From Candidatus Poribacteria bacterium (GTDB lineage: Bacteria > Poribacteria > DTPJ01 > WJIO01): a DNA stretch of 45,528 nucleotides. The notes below the pieces were generated by a model that was given only the letters and a program-made list of their open reading frames with translations, did no database searches and was not told where the DNA came from. Positions 5,017 through 42,877 of this stretch are shown here, piece after piece. Both the position numbers and the translations under genes were made by a program. Location: the NCBI GenBank assembly GCA_014730235.1, contig WJIO01000416.1, positions 1 to 45,528 of the forward strand. The letters are read 5' to 3'. Each line of letters opens with the position of its first letter. Position 1 is the stretch's first letter.

Positions 5017-5655
5017 TTGATTGGTAAAAAAGTGAAACTTCTTATAACTGTAATTGTCATAACCATGATGCTTGCATCATTGGCAGCGGCGGATATTGCG
5101 GTTATATTCGACGAAGACGAAAACGACGAAGCTGGCGATGGTGATTTTGCCAATGTTTTTCCTAATCACGACGCAGGTAGTACCGTTACTGTAACCGACG
5201 ATGATTCTATATCTGGTAGATTCTCAGTATTTTGCACACCGTCTCAGTCATACAATAACGCTATTGCTGGGTGGGCATATCCCATAAGCAATGACGATTA
5301 TCGCTATATAACTTTTGCATGGCGAAAAGACGGTGGAACTGGTATAATGATACAACTTGCTTTTGATACCACATGGGCTTATAGATATTTTAGTGGTGTC
5401 AATGTAACAAATTGGCCGGGAATACAACTTGAAAACGATATTCCAGAAGACTGGATGGTTTATACCCGCGACCTTGTGGAAGATTTTGGAGCCAACTGGA
5501 ATCTAACAGGAGTAGCTTTAACCCCTTGGGATGGAGTTGGTGGTTACTATGATCATATAATACTCCATACCGATGAAGATGAAGGTAAAATTGGTCAATT
5601 TGCGGTAGAATTTAGTGGTAAATTAACCACAACATGGGGGAAAATTAAACATTAG
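5017..5655 (+). CDS. Secreted beta-sandwich-like protein with LTTTWG tail, paralogue A
   Basis: The 212-residue product starts at TTG 5017, placed by the AAGGAG site about 8 bases upstream. A Sec signal peptide (basic start, LLITVIVITMMLASLAAA) is followed by one compact domain. The segment RKDGGTGIMIQLAFDTTWAYRYF...WPGIQLE...EDWMVYTRDLVEDFG...LTGVALTPWDG resembles, from memory, a carbohydrate-binding-like module appended to large planctomycete and verrucomicrobial secreted proteins; here it stands alone. The C-terminus ends KLTTTWGKIKH, a tail shared with the next two genes. It is a tandem paralogue of the following gene, 70 bases away. Function is unknown; glycan binding is a guess. Confidence 0.85.
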   Translation: MIGKKVKLLITVIVITMMLASLAAADIAVIFDEDENDEAGDGDFANVFPNHDAGSTVTVTDDDSISGRFSVFCTPSQSYNNAIAGWAYPISNDDYRYITFAWRKDGGTGIMIQLAFDTTWAYRYFSGVNVTNWPGIQLENDIPEDWMVYTRDLVEDFGANWNLTGVALTPWDGVGGYYDHIILHTDEDEGKIGQFAVEFSGKLTTTWGKIKH

Positions 5656-5725
5656 TTACAAAACAATCGTTACAGAATAAACGATTGTAATTCAACAATT
5701 TATTAAAACCTCAAGGAGGATGTAA

Positions 5726-6337
5726 GTGAAAATATTTTTAAGTACGCTGATTATAACTCTGTTAGTCATTTGCCCTATGGCCTTTGCTGATATGGTAGTC
5801 TTATTTGACGAAAATACCGCATCAGAAGCCGGAGGCGGCGATTTTCCCGCTTTATTCCCCAATCATGATGCAGACAGTGTGGTAGAGATTTCAGAAACCG
5901 AAAGCTTTGCCGGAAGCGTATCTGTTTTAGCTACACCATCCCAGTCATATAATAATATCATTGAGGGATGGGAATTTCCCGTTGATGATTACCCATATCT
6001 GACATTTGCATGGAAAAAAGACGGCGGTACCGGGATAATGGTACAGTTTGCTTTTGACACTACCTGGGCTTACAGATACTACAGCGGCGTCAACGTTACA
6101 GATTGGCCAGGAATTCAACTGGAAGATACTATTCCAGAAGACTGGATGATGTATACCCGAAATCTGGTTGATGATTTTGGCGGCGGATGGAATCTTACAG
6201 GTATAGCATTAACTCCGTGGGATGGTGAAGCAGGCTATTACGATTTCATGATACTTCACAGCGATCCTGAACCACCCACAGCCGTTGAAGCTGAGGACAA
6301 GTTGACCACAACATGGGGTAAGATGAAGAGTAATTAA
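5726..6337 (+). CDS. Secreted beta-sandwich-like protein with LTTTWG tail, paralogue B
   Basis: The 203-residue product starts at GTG 5726 behind an AAGGAGGA site. It has a Sec signal peptide (LIITLLVICPMAFA, then D) and the same domain as the upstream gene, with nearly identical core segments (GGTGIM, FDTTWAYRYYSGVNVT, WPGIQLE, PEDWM, LTPWDG). The N-terminal segments (FDE, NHDA) also match, so the two arose by tandem duplication. It ends KLTTTWGKMKSN. A hairpin with a T-run at 6363-6402 terminates the pair, which probably forms one transcript. Function is unknown; secreted or surface display is inferred from the signal peptide and the shared tail. Confidence 0.85.
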   Translation: MKIFLSTLIITLLVICPMAFADMVVLFDENTASEAGGGDFPALFPNHDADSVVEISETESFAGSVSVLATPSQSYNNIIEGWEFPVDDYPYLTFAWKKDGGTGIMVQFAFDTTWAYRYYSGVNVTDWPGIQLEDTIPEDWMMYTRNLVDDFGGGWNLTGIALTPWDGEAGYYDFMILHSDPEPPTAVEAEDKLTTTWGKMKSN

Positions 6338-6362
6338 TATTTAACTCTCATCCTGATTCTTT

Positions 6363-6402
6363 AAAAAGGCCTGTTGGGATTTTGCCTCAATGGGCCTTTT
6401 TT
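6363..6402 (+). terminator. Intrinsic terminator after the paralogue pair
   Basis: AAAAGGCC pairs with GGCCTTTT across a loop that contains a further partial pairing, and the second arm runs into a T-tract. It lies 25 bases after the paralogue B stop codon. Confidence 0.75.
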
Positions 6403-6545
6403 CTGGCAAGCAATGACACACATATGTCACATCTTCAATTTATAATTTTAAAGTATAATTATGCAAACAGATTAATTTGATAATGGAATTAGGGATTAAG
6501 TGGCTTAAAATTGTCGAGTTAATTAAAATCATAACACGTTTATTT

Positions 6546-6665
6546 GGTTCTTCCGGTTTTAGTGTGATTATAATCGAAAATTCTCTCAGCTTGTCATTCC
6601 TGCTTTCGCAGGAATGACAGCATAAGAAAGTTCCTTATATTTACCACACTGAACCCTGAAAAGCC
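6546..6665. repeat. Dispersed palindromic element, copy 2 (family 1 arms, short core)
   Basis: About 120 bases with both family 1 ends in inverted orientation: left GGTTCTTCCGGTTTTAGTGTG, right mirrored as CACACTGAACCCTGAAAAGCC. The middle is an 11-bp stem (GTCATTCCTGC) with a TTTC loop. Left and right inner arms differ (ATAATCGAAAATTCTCTCA versus the mirror of TAAGGAACTTTCTTATGC). It occupies the gap before the 6723 gene and no other feature is visible there. Confidence 0.82.
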
Positions 6666-6722
6666 GTTTATTTTAATTCCGTGACTTAACATAATTAAAT
6701 ACTTTAACCGGGAGGGAAAAAG

Positions 6723-7973
6723 ATGTTTAGGAAGGTCGCTATTTTAACGCTATCAGTTCTGATAGCTGTTTCTTTGTGTTCAGGCTTGTCAGCTCAGGAA
6801 TGGTATGAGATGCGGGAACCTGAAGGTTCACCGTTAATAAATATACCAAAAGCGGACAGAGCCTTGTTGGATGCCCTATATATCAGCGTAATGTTTATAA
6901 CTGCGGAAGATCTGGCCATGATATCACCCATCTATAACGCCCTGGACACGCTGCCGGGAATAGATGTTCGCACATGGTTTGATTCTTCAGCCGGTACTCC
7001 GGATATGGCCACATTACTGGAACATGATGTGGTTATTGTATGGGCAAGTGGAGACATAGCCGATACAGACACCCTTGGTGATGCCCTGGCCTACTATGCC
7101 GATCTGGGCGGCGGTGTAATAGTAGCCAGTCCTTCAAGATTTCCAGGTATAGCCATAGGTGGCAGATTTATGGATGATGGATACGATCCACTGATGAATG
7201 GTTCTGGCCCCCTGGGTGGCGATGTTCTGGGAGCCAACGATCTCCATAATATTATGTCAATCCCCTATGCAATCACAGCTATCTGGGGTGATGGAAGGGA
7301 AGAAACAGAACTCCGGGCCGGCGCTGATCTGGTGGCATGGTGGAGCGATGGTAATCCAATGGTGGCCACAAAGGGTAACGTAGTAGGAATTACCCTTTAC
7401 CTGGGAGATGAAGCCGGCACATGGTGGGATGGTCATGTTCCTCAACTCCTGGCCAACATCTGTAATTGGCTGGTGGGAAATACATCAGTAGCCTGGACTT
7501 TTGTTTATGCCGATATGTTCGCCGACACAGGTTCAGGAACAGCAGTACCGCTGCTAAGACATTATCGCGACACTGTTTTGATCAATGATGTAGATGGCGA
7601 AACCCTCGTTGGTGAACTTTACGAAGATCATTCAGAGGAATTAGCCCGTATACTTATGAAACATCCCTGGTTAAGACATCGCTGTGCCATAATGATAGCA
7701 AAGCATCTGAAAGATATTCATGATGTACTGGAAGGTGGTCAGATGCGCCTGACAAAGCATCAACTCTGGCAGATTCTCTGGTTATTAAGAGATATATCCA
7801 GATATGCAAGCCCGGAATTCAGGGCTTATATCAGAGATGTCCAGATAACTATGCTTGATAAAGATCAAATGCTGGATTTTGGCGTTATTGTTTCTGATCG
7901 TTTATTCTTTGCGCCCAAGAAACCTGCAAACAATCTGACTACAAGCTGGGGCGCAATAAGAAAAAATCATTAA
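6723..7973 (+). CDS. Secreted protein with GATase-like N-terminal domain and LTTSWG tail
   Basis: The 416-residue product starts at ATG behind GGGAGGG. A Sec signal peptide (VAILTLSVLIAVSLCSGLSA, then QEW) precedes a region (about 50-250) that looks like a class I glutamine-amidotransferase-like fold: strands around VMFITAED, DVVIVWASGD, GGGVIVASPSRF and VVGITLYLGDE. No Cys-His-Glu triad is evident, so it is probably non-catalytic. The C-terminal half (270-400) is helical and charged, with no recognised domain. The protein ends NNLTTSWGAIRKNH, the same tail as the two preceding secreted proteins, although the rest is unrelated to them. This argues that the tail is a sorting or processing signal, not part of one fold. 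A terminator follows at 8011. Confidence 0.8.
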   Translation: MFRKVAILTLSVLIAVSLCSGLSAQEWYEMREPEGSPLINIPKADRALLDALYISVMFITAEDLAMISPIYNALDTLPGIDVRTWFDSSAGTPDMATLLEHDVVIVWASGDIADTDTLGDALAYYADLGGGVIVASPSRFPGIAIGGRFMDDGYDPLMNGSGPLGGDVLGANDLHNIMSIPYAITAIWGDGREETELRAGADLVAWWSDGNPMVATKGNVVGITLYLGDEAGTWWDGHVPQLLANICNWLVGNTSVAWTFVYADMFADTGSGTAVPLLRHYRDTVLINDVDGETLVGELYEDHSEELARILMKHPWLRHRCAIMIAKHLKDIHDVLEGGQMRLTKHQLWQILWLLRDISRYASPEFRAYIRDVQITMLDKDQMLDFGVIVSDRLFFAPKKPANNLTTSWGAIRKNH

Positions 7974-35641: not shown

Positions 35642-38600
35642 TTATTCTCCCACAATAATTAGGTTCCCCGGTTGGTTTGTGTAAATCCAATAGCCTTTCC
35701 CCGGGTCTATTGTCTCAAAATCGTTGTTTAATCTGTCGGGATCATATTCCCCCCAGGTTTTGGTGATGGGGTTATAGGCATATATGGTAAAATCCCCTGA
35801 CAGACTGGAGGTAAGTTGGTCTATATCCAGGGGATATGTGGTGTTGCATCCTATGAGGTTCCATCCGGGGTAAAGCGTGATAAATCCAGGAGCTTGATCG
35901 CCCACGGCTTTCAGCATACCGGAACCGTTCATTAATAACCAATAACCATAACCACTCTTTATATTTGTCAGATCGTTCAGGAAGTCTGGCCCGCTGGTTT
36001 CGTATCTAAACCATTTCAGTGTTATTGGATCGTAACCCCATACGGCCTCGCATGTACCGTCTATCCTGGAAAGTAAAGAACTTACGCTGTTTTCAAAGGT
36101 TTCAACAGGTATGGAGATAAGATTCCATCCATCCCGCAGGGGTATCTCTGACGACAGGGCCAGAGTTACAGGAACACTCGCAGAATCTTTGTAATGGACC
36201 TTTAACTGAGTTTCAGAGGGCCTCAGATATGTTCTATCATAAGCCCTGGCATACAGATTATAATTACCGAAGGGATAACCTTCGGTATCCCATATCACTT
36301 CCCAGGGTGGACCGTTGTAATCAACTGCAATGGGCTCTGAGGTCTCAGGTGTATCGGGATAGAATTCTACCTTATGGATACCCATAGAATCAAGGGCATG
36401 AGCTGTTAATACTACCTGACCATGAACTACAGAATCGGCATCTGGTGAACTCATATAAACAGTTGAGGGGTTCATGGAATCTATTTTCTGGGTATAGGAG
36501 TTAATAAGCGACATATCGGAAGGGCCTGGAACTCCGAAAACTGTTTTCGATCCGTTTATGGGAAGGCTCATCTTTATCGTCGCTCCATCCTGGGGGGTAG
36601 CGCTGGAATTTACAGTAACGAAGAAACGCTTGGTAACGCCATGTATTTCATAATCCAGAGGTGAATCCTCTGACTGTTCCGGCAGCGGAGGTGACGGAAC
36701 AGGGCCGCGATACCATAAATTTGAGTTTTCAGGATGAGGGATCATGATGGAAATTTCATCATCAAAGTCAGGATTAAATATTTCGTTATTATCGCCATCA
36801 GCCCAGAGCTTTACTGATGACAGGTCAGAGTTGTCGGCAGTTCCTGTATTTTCGACCACAATGTATTCCAACATATCATTTCCTTCCGTTACTATACCGT
36901 TGCCGTCAAGATCTACATATATATGTTCGCTGATATATTGCTTTCCGTTATATACGTTGTCATTGTTGGCATCAACGTAGCGTTCATCGGGTCTGAAGTG
37001 TTTCATATTTGCTTTTCCTGATACAAGTACATAATCCCCGGATCCGCTGGTAAGATTACCTTGATCCAGCTTTCCGTCAGTGTTTTTATCATATATGATG
37101 GCCTCGTCCTGGTCGTATCTTGAGTTATGAGTGTTTTCTGAAGTTCCGCCGTCTATGTATTTTTCACTGCCAGAAAATTTGTTCAGTGCAGCCTTACCGC
37201 CGGTTATTATCTCACCGGATTCAAGTATTCCATTACTGTTTGAATCCTTTATTATCGCTTCGCCGGATTCGTATAGACCCGAAGCAGAATTATCATCGAG
37301 AAACTTATATTGAGATGGGAATGATTCTATGTCAGCTTTACCTTCCAGGTGTATTATATCGGTATCTTCCAGGAGATTATCAGGAGAACTCCAGCCAATT
37401 TCGGCAATGATGGCCTCACCGGGGGTGTAGATGCCATCGTGATCCGCATCTGTGAATCGATATATGGTTTCCTCAAACCTGTTAAGTTCTACAGCACCGG
37501 GCACAAGCACCTGATCGTCAGGCCCCAGAAGCATATCATCAGTCCTAATAATAGCTTCATTGCTAGTGTATGAACCATCGCTGTCTGTATCCAGAAAGAA
37601 GACATCCGCCCGGAATGTATTTATATCAGCAAAACCTTCTATAATTATTTCATTTTCTTCAACGTTATTATCACCATCATCCAGTGTTACCAACTCACCT
37701 ATATCAAACTGGTCATTTCTATCAGCATCAGAATACCTGTAAGCTGTTCCTGTCATATTTATCAGATCGGCATATCCATTGCTTTCCACCTCTCCGTTTT
37801 CCAGTATATCCGGTGTTTCATTGGAATCAATTATGATGGCTTCACCAATACCAGCAGTGATGGAAAAATCGTAATTCTGGTTGTGGTTGTTGTCTGAATA
37901 CCTTACCAGATCAGGTTTAAGCTGTTTCAGAGTAACCAAACCGGTAATCAGTATTTGATCTGCTGACTCCAAAACCCCTTCAGTGCCAGTATCCACTATA
38001 ACAGCTTCCTGATCATCAGGAACGCTGTTCTGGTTTGAATCGCAGTATTTGTGATTTTCAGAATCAAAAGACTTGAGAAACGGCACAGGGCCTGGCTCGA
38101 TTATTTCACCGGTGTCAATTATATCGTTATCGTTAAAGTCATTAACTCTTAATTCGCCAGGATCTGGTTGGTCGTTTTCATTAGCATCAACATATTTGAC
38201 ATTGGCAAATTCCCTTAAAGATGCTTCACCGGCAACGATAACCTGATCCTGATCCGGTAAAGTTCCTATAGACTGTATAATGTCATCATCGGAGCTATCG
38301 TAAACTATAGCTTCGTTATTCTGGTATAAACCGTCATGGTTGCTGTCCGCCCATTTGTTATTAACAGGCCAATTTTCCATGCAGGCATAACCGGAGGCAA
38401 TCAAGCTGTCAAATCCGGTTCCGTCAAGCTTTCCGGCTTCAATTTGATGGTTTTCTGTCCATATTATAGGTTCATAACCTTCGGAAAGAGATAAGCCATC
38501 ATAAGAACCGGAGTGATTATTATCCACGTATATGTATTCAGTAACGCTATTCAACTGGTTCATGGCTGATTGACCTGCTTCTCCGGGGAGAAGTACGCAA

Positions 38601-41600
38601 TCCCGATTTCTGGAACCGGGGGGTTGATATGTCAATTCACCGGAGTTTGAGTCTCCCAACAGAATATATTCCCCCAAAAAGCTGCCGGATTCATACCAAT
38701 CAAATACCAGTGCTTCATTAATATCGTAAATACCATTCCTGTTGCCATCAACAAATTTTTCGGTACGGCTGAAGCTTAAAAGCTGTAATTGGGAGGGGAT
38801 AATTACTTTGTCTTCACCGGTGCCATCAAGGGAGCCTTCACCAAGAAGTCCATCGGGATAACCGTCAGGGCTACTGTCAATTATCAATCCATCATCTGCG
38901 GAGAACTGGTTATTCCGATCTGAATCCAGATATTTATATGAACTTAAAAGCTGGTCATAGTGATTAAAGGTACTGCATGACCTGATATAGGCTTTATTAT
39001 CGGCTGCTAAACTGGGAAAATGGGGATAGGGAAGGTTATCTATATTATCGTTATCCAAATCTTCACCTTCGTCAACTATATTATTTCTATTCCTATCTTC
39101 GCCAACGGTGTCGGCTTTACCTGCTGTAATAATCTCACCGATGTCCAGCATATTGTTATCATTTTCATCCAGGACCAGAGCTTCATCAGGATCGAATATC
39201 CCGTTATTGCGCTCATCATCGGTAAACATTATCTGGAAAGGGAATGAACGTATACCAGCGCGGCCCGGTGTGATTATGTGATCCAGAGATTCAAGGCTGC
39301 CGGATTCGGATGTAATTATACATTCGCCCATATTATAATAGTGATCATCATCATCATCTATATAACAGACTGGGCCCCAGTTCTGGGTTATGCCTCTATA
39401 CAGATCAGTGGGATAATACTCAAATATTCCATCGTAGACAACTCTATCCGGACTATCCCATCCCGGATGTTCAGGTGTTAAAACGTTATGCAAAACTGTA
39501 TCAGGGTCAACGAGTTCCAGAACACCTAAAATCCCGCTTCTAACACTCCAATCAGGATTTTCGTTGATTACTGGTTGACCGTTATATACCTCATCGCCTA
39601 CAGCAGTCAGGAATTTTTCATGGAATTGGAACAAACGCATATTCGTATGTGAGGCTGGAGCTACCTGTGTACTCCATTTATTTTCGACTGAATAATCAAT
39701 CATACCATGAACTATATCGCCTGAATCCAAGATGAACAGCGGTTCATTATCCTGGATTAATACCTCTCTGTTATCGGGGAAATTGCTTAAGTTTGCGTCA
39801 ATATAGGCATTGGCGAAAGGATGGATTATATCTTCGGGCAGTGGATATATGCTGGCTACACCGGGTAATATTACATGATCAGGGCTGTCCTGCCCGTTTA
39901 ATTGACCAAGATCAAAACGCCAGGGATTTCCACTGTCCTTTATTATGGCTTCATGAAATATTTCACCCCCGGGGATATCATCAACACTATATGCCCAGGA
40001 AAACACAACAATACTGAAAACATATTTATTGACCTGGTAAATTGTGGCATAGTCCTCTGTGGGAGAACCACCTTCGTATATATTTTCAGCTATATACCAT
40101 TCTTTTTCCTGAAACTGATAGATAACAGGATTCTGTGGTACAGAGATAAATTCGTTATCATAAAAGGCCTGGGGTATTATTCCTGCATTTAGATCTGCTT
40201 CCATTTCCGCAATGAATTCTTTACCAAGTTCTAACTCTACAAAATCGCAAATCCGTGAGTTATCATTATCAGCGTCTAAATATTTATACTCCGGTGGAAA
40301 ATTGACCAAGGTACCGGGATTATATGCGACACAGTTTTTAAGAACACCCGATTCATAAGGGTCATATAATATGGCTTCACCATGGGAATAAACTTTATCA
40401 CCGTTACAATCAACGTATCTCTCGCGAGCGTAACCCTGGTTAAATCTTGTTATGTTGGCTGAACCGGATTTGAGAAAATGATCGTTAGTATCCAAAACGC
40501 CCTCAGGTTCAGAATCGATCAACATGGCCTCTTCGGTTTCAAATTGAGAGTTACTGTTGCCATCAAGGTATTTAATTAGATCTGTTGAGATCAGGGAAGC
40601 ATATCCTGGTTTTATGATTTCATCTGAGTCCACCAGATCATTGGTATTCAGGTCTCTCCATATGGCCTCATCTTTATCATATGTACCGTTATGGTTGTTG
40701 TCAATAAACTGCTCATCAAGGAGTTCTTTTGGGCCGACACCAGTTACCATCACCTGATCTGTATCATCAAGGATTGTATTGGAGTTATTATCCCTTATAA
40801 CAGCTTCACAGGTGCTATCGGGTTGGGCTTTACCGTCATAACCAGCATCTCCATCATCTATATAATATAAATTAGTTCCAAGAAGAGGTGTCAACAGGGC
40901 CAGACCGGGACGAAGCACCAGGTCATTATGATCCAGGGCCAGATGCTGTAAACCAATAGTATCATTTATCAGAACTTCATCGCTATCATCAAAGACATCA
41001 GGATCATTTCCGTCTGCGTCATGGTCGGAATCACCCTGAAAGAATCCGTCGCCGTTATGGTCAATATAAACTATGTTATTATCGGGTGTTTTTATGTCCA
41101 TAGAACCTGATATTAATATTTCATCGCCATCATCCAATACGGGAACTTCACCCTGATTATTTATAACAGGTTCACCAGTATCAAAGCCCATGCTACCATC
41201 AGTATCAACAAAAAGGGTTGAGGTATTGTCAGCCAGTGATAATAAACCGGCTTTGCCAGAATCTAAAACTACGTCATCAGAGCTTAAGATATTATCCTGG
41301 CTGAAAATTACCAATTCATCAGGGGAATGAATCTCATCACCATTGTTATCCGAGTAATACTGCCGACTGACATCTCCTGAAATAGGCTGCAAATTACAGA
41401 ATCCGGGTTTAACAATCTCACCGGAATTTAGTGTATAATCGGGACTATTGACCATCAATTCGTCTGTACTATAGTAACCATCATCGTTTATATCCGCCCA
41501 TTTTGTGTTGGCTCCAAAGGATGTAAGAAAGGCCAGGCCAGGTTTTAGAACAGAGTCAGATTCTGAAATTACATCCCAAAGACCGTTATTTCGTATTATA

Positions 41601-42877
41601 CACTCTCCATCCGTATAATTGCCGTTACCATCAGTATCAAAGAAATAATCGGTTGATAGAAAGGGGGTTAGATCGGCTTTACCGGAGTTTATAATCTGGT
41701 CTTCGGATTCCAAAAGGTGATCGGACTGACCGTTGTTTCTTACTATAGCTTCTAATATATCCAGACTTCCGTCGTTATCATTGTCAGAAAAAGATATGCT
41801 GTAAAAGCTTTTCAGGTTTGCTCTACCGGGAATGACTATCTTCCAGTAACTTACCAGATTATCTTCAGATTTGATTATCAACTCACCGGGGGAGTACATG
41901 TAATTACCGTCGTCGTCGGCAAAGACCATATCTTGATCATACAGAAGCTTCAGATCTGCATTACCCGCCCTGTATACTTTATCAACTCCTGAACCGTCCA
42001 GATCTCCCAGCTCCAGTTGACCAGATATGCCTGTATCCAGGATGATTGGCTCATCGGAAATATACCGACCATCACCGTTGAAATCCAGATATTTGACCTG
42101 GGGATTCACAGTTTTCAGGTCAGCATAACCGGAGAGTAAAATTGCATCGTCAGAATCCAGTATATCATCAGTAGAATTGATTATGGCTTCACCATAATGA
42201 TATGTGGCATTTGTTGAATTACCTTCAATACCGTCAGTAAAACGTATGTTTGGTGAAAATGCCGTCATACGGGCCAGGCCGGCTTTGATTATTTCTCCCG
42301 GAAAAAGTTTATCCTGCTGAGTTTCGATGTTTACTATAGCTTCTCCCGGGGTGTATTTTGATGAGCCATCGCTGTCAATATACAGCTCTCCAAAACCACC
42401 GACAGATTTAAAGGACTCAAGACTGCATAGACCGCTTTTTCTGACAAAATCATCTGCATCCAGGATATCGTCCTCTGAATTTATAATGGCTTCACCTGTA
42501 TCAATTGTGGTGTTTCCATCATAGTAACCATTCCCGGTATGGTCTGAATACCAGTCTGTTAAGCCAAACTGCTTCAGGGTATCGGCGGGATTTGATGATG
42601 CAATGCCGTTATGTAATTTTACATCTTCACTAATTCTGCCGGCATCAAAGGTGGGTATGGTGATGTCCAGTACCAGGAGATTTTCATAATTTTCGGGTAT
42701 GGTTACAGGTATATCACCATCAGGTGGAGATACATCAGATTTTGTTACCTCACTGGCAAAAAAGGCATATATACCTGCACCGGTGAAAATGGTGGTTAAG
42801 GCTATAATAATTATGATTTTGAGGTGTTTGTAGCCTTTAAATAAATGATTTTTCGAATATTTATAGCCGCGATTCAT
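35642..42877 (-). CDS. Giant surface protein with about 30 Ca-binding-type loop repeats
   Basis: The 2411-residue product starts at ATG 42877 behind AGAGGT. A basic N-terminus and membrane segment (IIIIIALTTIFTGAGIYAFFA, about residues 21-41) look like an uncleaved anchor or signal. Residues about 105-1990 consist of roughly 30 degenerate repeats of 45-65 residues. Each has an EF-hand-like loop (Y-x-D-x-(D/N)-x-(D/N)-G-x-Y), then GEA(I/L)I, a second acidic segment (DSNGILESGE-like) and a hydrophobic GxAxLxxF. C-terminal parts are an Ig-like domain (about 2130-2230) and two copies of a GWNLIS/GYW domain (about 2245-2411, with LRDGWNLISIPV and GKGYWIYTN). There is no LTTTWG tail. Calcium-stabilised surface fibre or adhesin is the inference. 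The frame is uninterrupted for 7.2 kb. It converges with the VWA gene. Confidence 0.85.
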   Translation of the reverse strand: MNRGYKYSKNHLFKGYKHLKIIIIIALTTIFTGAGIYAFFASEVTKSDVSPPDGDIPVTIPENYENLLVLDITIPTFDAGRISEDVKLHNGIASSNPADTLKQFGLTDWYSDHTGNGYYDGNTTIDTGEAIINSEDDILDADDFVRKSGLCSLESFKSVGGFGELYIDSDGSSKYTPGEAIVNIETQQDKLFPGEIIKAGLARMTAFSPNIRFTDGIEGNSTNATYHYGEAIINSTDDILDSDDAILLSGYADLKTVNPQVKYLDFNGDGRYISDEPIILDTGISGQLELGDLDGSGVDKVYRAGNADLKLLYDQDMVFADDDGNYMYSPGELIIKSEDNLVSYWKIVIPGRANLKSFYSISFSDNDNDGSLDILEAIVRNNGQSDHLLESEDQIINSGKADLTPFLSTDYFFDTDGNGNYTDGECIIRNNGLWDVISESDSVLKPGLAFLTSFGANTKWADINDDGYYSTDELMVNSPDYTLNSGEIVKPGFCNLQPISGDVSRQYYSDNNGDEIHSPDELVIFSQDNILSSDDVVLDSGKAGLLSLADNTSTLFVDTDGSMGFDTGEPVINNQGEVPVLDDGDEILISGSMDIKTPDNNIVYIDHNGDGFFQGDSDHDADGNDPDVFDDSDEVLINDTIGLQHLALDHNDLVLRPGLALLTPLLGTNLYYIDDGDAGYDGKAQPDSTCEAVIRDNNSNTILDDTDQVMVTGVGPKELLDEQFIDNNHNGTYDKDEAIWRDLNTNDLVDSDEIIKPGYASLISTDLIKYLDGNSNSQFETEEAMLIDSEPEGVLDTNDHFLKSGSANITRFNQGYARERYVDCNGDKVYSHGEAILYDPYESGVLKNCVAYNPGTLVNFPPEYKYLDADNDNSRICDFVELELGKEFIAEMEADLNAGIIPQAFYDNEFISVPQNPVIYQFQEKEWYIAENIYEGGSPTEDYATIYQVNKYVFSIVVFSWAYSVDDIPGGEIFHEAIIKDSGNPWRFDLGQLNGQDSPDHVILPGVASIYPLPEDIIHPFANAYIDANLSNFPDNREVLIQDNEPLFILDSGDIVHGMIDYSVENKWSTQVAPASHTNMRLFQFHEKFLTAVGDEVYNGQPVINENPDWSVRSGILGVLELVDPDTVLHNVLTPEHPGWDSPDRVVYDGIFEYYPTDLYRGITQNWGPVCYIDDDDDHYYNMGECIITSESGSLESLDHIITPGRAGIRSFPFQIMFTDDERNNGIFDPDEALVLDENDNNMLDIGEIITAGKADTVGEDRNRNNIVDEGEDLDNDNIDNLPYPHFPSLAADNKAYIRSCSTFNHYDQLLSSYKYLDSDRNNQFSADDGLIIDSSPDGYPDGLLGEGSLDGTGEDKVIIPSQLQLLSFSRTEKFVDGNRNGIYDINEALVFDWYESGSFLGEYILLGDSNSGELTYQPPGSRNRDCVLLPGEAGQSAMNQLNSVTEYIYVDNNHSGSYDGLSLSEGYEPIIWTENHQIEAGKLDGTGFDSLIASGYACMENWPVNNKWADSNHDGLYQNNEAIVYDSSDDDIIQSIGTLPDQDQVIVAGEASLREFANVKYVDANENDQPDPGELRVNDFNDNDIIDTGEIIEPGPVPFLKSFDSENHKYCDSNQNSVPDDQEAVIVDTGTEGVLESADQILITGLVTLKQLKPDLVRYSDNNHNQNYDFSITAGIGEAIIIDSNETPDILENGEVESNGYADLINMTGTAYRYSDADRNDQFDIGELVTLDDGDNNVEENEIIIEGFADINTFRADVFFLDTDSDGSYTSNEAIIRTDDMLLGPDDQVLVPGAVELNRFEETIYRFTDADHDGIYTPGEAIIAEIGWSSPDNLLEDTDIIHLEGKADIESFPSQYKFLDDNSASGLYESGEAIIKDSNSNGILESGEIITGGKAALNKFSGSEKYIDGGTSENTHNSRYDQDEAIIYDKNTDGKLDQGNLTSGSGDYVLVSGKANMKHFRPDERYVDANNDNVYNGKQYISEHIYVDLDGNGIVTEGNDMLEYIVVENTGTADNSDLSSVKLWADGDNNEIFNPDFDDEISIMIPHPENSNLWYRGPVPSPPLPEQSEDSPLDYEIHGVTKRFFVTVNSSATPQDGATIKMSLPINGSKTVFGVPGPSDMSLINSYTQKIDSMNPSTVYMSSPDADSVVHGQVVLTAHALDSMGIHKVEFYPDTPETSEPIAVDYNGPPWEVIWDTEGYPFGNYNLYARAYDRTYLRPSETQLKVHYKDSASVPVTLALSSEIPLRDGWNLISIPVETFENSVSSLLSRIDGTCEAVWGYDPITLKWFRYETSGPDFLNDLTNIKSGYGYWLLMNGSGMLKAVGDQAPGFITLYPGWNLIGCNTTYPLDIDQLTSSLSGDFTIYAYNPITKTWGEYDPDRLNNDFETIDPGKGYWIYTNQPGNLIIVGE

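Follow-up and report, generated by a model that had tools for sequence, protein, structure and literature searches.

A short C-terminal tail of exported poribacterial proteins: a probable sorting signal that co-occurs with SprA

Results

Tail-bearing proteins of the window

The window, that is, the whole analyzed stretch of 45,528 nucleotides from a Candidatus Poribacteria contig, contains three genes on the + strand whose products have Sec signal peptides and similar short C-terminal tails. Protein 1 (5017–5655, 212 aa) comprises the signal peptide (approximately residues 1–25), a beta-sandwich body, a disordered linker, and the tail AVEFSGKLTTTWGKIKH (5602–5652, +). Protein 2 (5726–6337, 203 aa), with the tail AVEAEDKLTTTWGKMKSN (6281–6334, +), is its paralogue, the two sharing 64% identity. 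Protein 3 (6723–7973, 416 aa), ending in PANNLTTSWGAIRKNH, has a body unrelated to both and forms a BLAST cluster of its own among the sampled tail proteins; its tail, NLTTSWGAIRKNH (7932–7970, +), lacks the upstream V-E/D-P described below and carries N instead of K. All this confirms the preliminary description of the window, which had given the same three C-terminal ends, two paralogues, and a third, unrelated body.

The structural model of protein 1 has a confidently predicted beta-sandwich, followed by the disordered linker and a short low-confidence helix at the tail; no folded C-terminal beta-sandwich domain is seen in the model at the tail itself, which is placed beyond the linker. The modeled sandwich bears a likeness to carbohydrate-binding modules, with modest scores. 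Among homologues of protein 1, the tail is retained in 36 out of 36 proteins from 14 genomes, at identities down to ~31%, and the stretch connecting it to the body varies in length.

Two other features of the window were observed. Residues 274–326 of protein 3, well upstream of the tail, match the CFI-box-CTERM model NF041770 with 33.4 bits, below the cut-off of 40. On the − strand, positions 35642–42877 encode a 2411-residue protein with many D/N-rich repeats (D-x-D-G-x-Y and GEAI motifs) and no NCBIfam match.

The tail motif

The tail consensus in the genome of the window is [AP]-V-[ED]-P-x-[GDN]-K-L-[TA]-T-x-W-[GA]-x-[IL]-K-x(0-5)-COOH, ~17 residues in total. In 284 poribacterial tails numbered relative to the tryptophan, we see V at −10 (89%), E or D at −9, P at −8 (59%), K at −5 (90%), L at −4 (85%), and T at −2 (91%), W being followed by [GA], any residue, [IL], and K at +4 (95%), with usually 0–5 residues between this last K and the stop. 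A part of the sample was retrieved with KLTTTWGxIK, and hence the frequencies inside that string are inflated; the upstream V, E, and P were in no search pattern. The LTT(T/S)WG end recognized in the preliminary description holds, but its extent had been underestimated, as the real motif also includes V, E/D, P, and K at −10, −9, −8, and −5, respectively.

At the DNA level, the strict pattern YTNACNACNWSNTGGGSN has 17 matches in this genome versus two for the reversed pattern, the in-frame matches mostly lying 9–11 codons ahead of a stop; a broader pattern yields 79 matches (a count that includes double-counted sites) versus 11 in the control. As every synonymous codon of L, T, and G is used in the tail, selection acts on the protein. 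At least 60 ORFs in the sampled portion of the genome end in the motif, 50 of them with a signal peptide according to a simple heuristic, and the remaining ones are mostly cut by contig ends or lack a clear start. Thus, the tail, for which a whole-genome search had been proposed at the outset, is confined neither to the three window genes nor to cytosolic proteins, and that the tail itself is real is near certain.

Proteins carrying the tail

Signal peptides were found in 184 out of 224 poribacterial tail ORFs (a further 15 are truncated), compared with 105 out of 327 other ORFs under the same heuristic. The heuristic is crude and also fires on some cytosolic proteins of the window, so the enrichment is conservative. 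Tail proteins are almost never lipoproteins. With the tail removed, BLAST groups 264 of them into 41 unrelated clusters, a single LamG-like cluster accounting for 140 out of 264. Their Pfam bodies, considered for the 25 commonest of 43–45 families, include LamG, 3-keto-disaccharide hydrolase, F5/8 type C, kelch, PD40, beta-helix, and DUF362, among others; within the same scope, neither NCBIfam nor Pfam yielded a model for the tail in the pooled tail proteins.

The tail is thus enriched among signal-peptide proteins, conserved independently of the body, and not followed by a membrane helix, as had been anticipated from the window. The combination of a transmembrane helix and a basic end characteristic of LPXTG, PEP-CTERM, GlyGly-CTERM, and MYXO-CTERM signals does not occur here, there being little room after the last K. 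As in sorting signals, a short C-terminal motif is shared by many unrelated proteins of one genome. Literature searches with the motif letters returned unrelated papers only, and nothing joining Poribacteria with a C-terminal sorting signal was found in the literature.

Distribution of the tail

The strict DNA pattern is present in 82 out of 84 Poribacteria genomes, with up to ~50 copies per genome and mostly 0–1 in the reversed controls, and a looser pattern occurs in all 84. Among the KLTTTWGxIK matches listed for a set of 84,980 species, all but two loci come from records named Poribacteria. The two exceptions, L120 in a sponge “Pseudomonadota” MAG and L226 in a “Planctomycetota” MAG, may be poribacterial contigs that were misbinned or misnamed, or may result from transfer.

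Outside Poribacteria, a longer form of the tail, [ST]WGx[IV]Kx[LM][YF]R-COOH, is found at the end of exported proteins in 16 genomes verified at the sequence level. A 30-base pattern covering this form and the stop has 19, 15, 15, 8, 5, and fewer copies in a few such genomes, with zero in the control there. The sites read outside Poribacteria mostly belong to signal-peptide proteins built in the same way as in Poribacteria, and the shared core of the longer and poribacterial forms suggests that they are homologous. A separate observation concerns six genomes from different families outside Poribacteria, each with one pattern match, which encode a ~130 aa secreted protein ending in TWGSIKA[ILM]FR; in two of the six its gene adjoins sigma-factor-like and peptidase-like genes, as judged from sequence.

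SprA and other type IX secretion components

In the first test, every tail-bearing genome gave a SprA match, and the seven genomes picked as tail-free gave none. Over 288 genomes, SprA is present in 83 out of 84 Poribacteria, the only genome lacking it being 81% complete, and in 79 out of 204 others, including all 16 verified tail genomes outside Poribacteria (Fisher p = 9e-8 for SprA versus the verified tail outside Poribacteria); 63 out of these 79 SprA-positive genomes have no verified tail. This p-value leaves out genome G203, with 10 pattern matches versus zero in controls and its sites unread, and becomes 7e-6 if the SprA-negative genomes G104 and G164, whose loci are likewise unread, are both counted as positives. 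The pattern loci read in other genomes without SprA, among them G110, G134, G144, G172, G173, and G236, hold no matching reading frame of at least 40 aa.

PorV-family shuttles are present in at least 10 copies in nearly all tail-bearing genomes tested; because the family is expanded, these counts alone are uninformative. Type A C-terminal domains of the type IX secretion system (T9SS) co-occur with tails in the tail-bearing genomes tested, and some body families (loci L274, L300, and L216) carry a type A domain in place of the tail, these swaps involving common repeat or sugar-binding domains. PorU-like proteins give strong matches that fall below the curated cut-off in Poribacteria and exceed it in several other genomes. 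The 84 Poribacteria genomes also contain many ORFs of ~1,000–2,300 residues whose matches to the PorU T9SS sortase profile lie under its cut-off, constituting an expansion.

Gene clustering around 112 tail loci identified no machinery family recurring beside the tail genes, and T9SS genes do not adjoin them; recurrent neighbors resemble, by sequence, oxidoreductases, phyH-type enzymes, sulfatases, and permeases. The co-occurring sortase-like or secretion gene that the preliminary description suggested looking for has candidates in SprA/PorV and the PorU-like proteins, whose co-occurrence with the tail may reflect shared ancestry.

A divergent SprA in the genome of the window

The SprA homologue of this genome is a 2297-residue ORF (L291:2643–9536, contig C368, + strand) with a LysM domain near the N-terminus. 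It matches the TIGR04189 profile with E = 9e-54 and 182 bits versus the cut-off of 200 (hmmscan), and SprA_N just above its cut-off. For 1200 residues of this protein, a structure was modeled with moderate confidence (mean pLDDT 68.5, pTM 0.48), and its best matches are the four solved SprA chains (Foldseek E to 2e-45); in VIA comparisons with solved SprA, this model yields Z of 18.5–19.6 over ~800 aligned residues, with high rmsd. A phmmer search of the protein against PDB sequences found nothing, whereas the profile and fold searches did match. Profile, domain, and predicted fold together support the view that Poribacteria encode a divergent SprA. In an earlier genomic study, type A-like domains were noted in Poribacteria, Por structural genes were not found, and the export route was left open (Kamke et al., 2014; PMC3909097); a divergent SprA falling under the curated cut-off would explain why these genes were reported missing. 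The gene next to SprA (L291:9538–10137, − strand) encodes a signal-peptide protein that has a lamin-tail domain and the C-terminal end FTVWSAIR, a possible variant of the tail.

Discussion

The tail is probably a sorting signal, and no description of it was found. The preliminary description had offered a secretion, docking, or processing signal; the class is sound, and the choice among the three roles is not settled by sequence. We favor, with a probability of about 0.45, the reading that the tail is a minimal C-terminal signal for SprA/PorV-type export. Tail carriers would use Sec to pass the inner membrane, after which their flexible C-terminal peptide, AV[ED]P-x-x-K-L-T-T-x-W-[GA]-x-[IL]-K, would be offered to an export machine in the outer membrane; the most likely reader of the tail is the SprA/PorV-type (type IX-like) translocon encoded by these genomes. 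The tail, used mainly on small (~250 aa) proteins, would then serve as a minimal equivalent of the folded type A domain, and we infer that, once it is read by SprA/PorV, its carriers are exported to the cell surface or attached there.

The link between SprA and the tail is correlative and confounded by common ancestry, as the phyla may share SprA by descent; nearly all Poribacteria carry SprA, leaving no contrast within the phylum, and the tail has neither the motifs nor the fold of known type IX signals. Hints in favor of the link are the body families that carry a type A domain in place of the tail, the near absence of lipoproteins among tail proteins, and the published precedent of the short HBP35 signal described below. 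A stronger version is held more tentatively, being somewhat more doubtful than not: a third class of type IX signals, in which a ~17-residue linear peptide replaces the folded domain in Poribacteria and several other phyla and is read by SprA together with a dedicated PorV-like shuttle. If so, Poribacteria would have a divergent type IX route addressed by a peptide alone.

The same observations can be read differently. A dedicated receptor or protease unrelated to SprA might recognize the tail, with T9SS co-occurring because both are old in these phyla. This would agree with a tail form unlike all known type IX signals, with the presence of tails and type A domains in the same genomes, as two separate routes would give, and with the fact that most SprA genomes have no tails; weakly against it, no candidate family recurs among the genes around the 112 tail loci. 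We consider such a reader rather unlikely. Docking appears less probable still: after export by another route, the tail would bind a shared partner at the surface or in the periplasm, for instance an outer-membrane barrel or a cell-wall polymer, and hold ligand-binding proteins there. Many bodies do have sugar- or ligand-binding folds (LamG, F5/8 type C, CBM-like), and a flexible linker precedes the tail, but docking leaves unexplained how non-lipoprotein cargo crosses the outer membrane, if it does, and no partner was found.

The C-terminal targeting helices of FtsA and MinD suggest a comparison with a short amphipathic helix attaching proteins to a membrane surface. The low-confidence helix in the model, the basic residues, the tryptophan, and I/L would fit, but the helical moments computed for the window tails are modest (0.25–0.35), no higher than for a strand, and the near-invariant W-[GA] and K, together with the upstream V, suggest specific recognition over general amphipathicity, making this highly improbable. 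Finally, shared descent or chance, with a few paralogous families inheriting one end that has no separate function, would suit the two paralogues of the window and the large LamG-like cluster, but is in the main rejected and scarcely credible given forty other unrelated clusters with the tail, counts far above controls, and the conservation of upstream V and P outside every search pattern.

Poribacteria are best known from sponge symbionts. In each genome, the tail is borne by dozens of proteins, mainly ligand-binding ones, and would allow one to list their exported proteins from sequence. LPXTG, PEP-CTERM, and MYXO-CTERM signals have each led to a new sorting enzyme. The tail also points to a SprA translocon in Poribacteria, although this phylum has been reported to lack Por structural genes (PMC3909097); T9SS genes have been stated to be absent outside the FCB phyla (PMC11285876).

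Comparison with known C-terminal signals

The PEP-CTERM/exosortase and MYXO-CTERM/myxosortase systems (PMC1569441, PMC11980579) resemble the tail in that a short C-terminal region is shared by many unrelated signal-peptide proteins; however, their signals consist of a signature, a transmembrane helix, and a basic end, whereas the tail has no membrane helix. The T9SS type B domain (TIGR04131; PMC12618676) parallels the role proposed here, as it defines a second class of SprA cargo with shuttles other than PorV, but it is large and often encoded beside its shuttle gene, a neighbor that tail genes do not have.

The T9SS type A domain (TIGR04183), like the tail, is C-terminal, is found on dozens of Sec-exported proteins of unrelated function per genome, occurs in genomes with SprA and PorV, and has a conserved lysine near the C-terminus. 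In contrast, the tail is ~17 residues long and has no GxY motif or beta-sandwich fold, none of the three window proteins matches TIGR04183 at E up to 10, and both kinds of ends are present in the same genomes. Short forms of the type A domain in Prevotella intermedia have 40–55 residues (PMC11969387), and the type IX signal of HBP35 has been located in the final 22 residues of its domain (reported in PMC11285876, PMC11969387). Through the tail, the minimum size of a type IX signal becomes a directly testable question.
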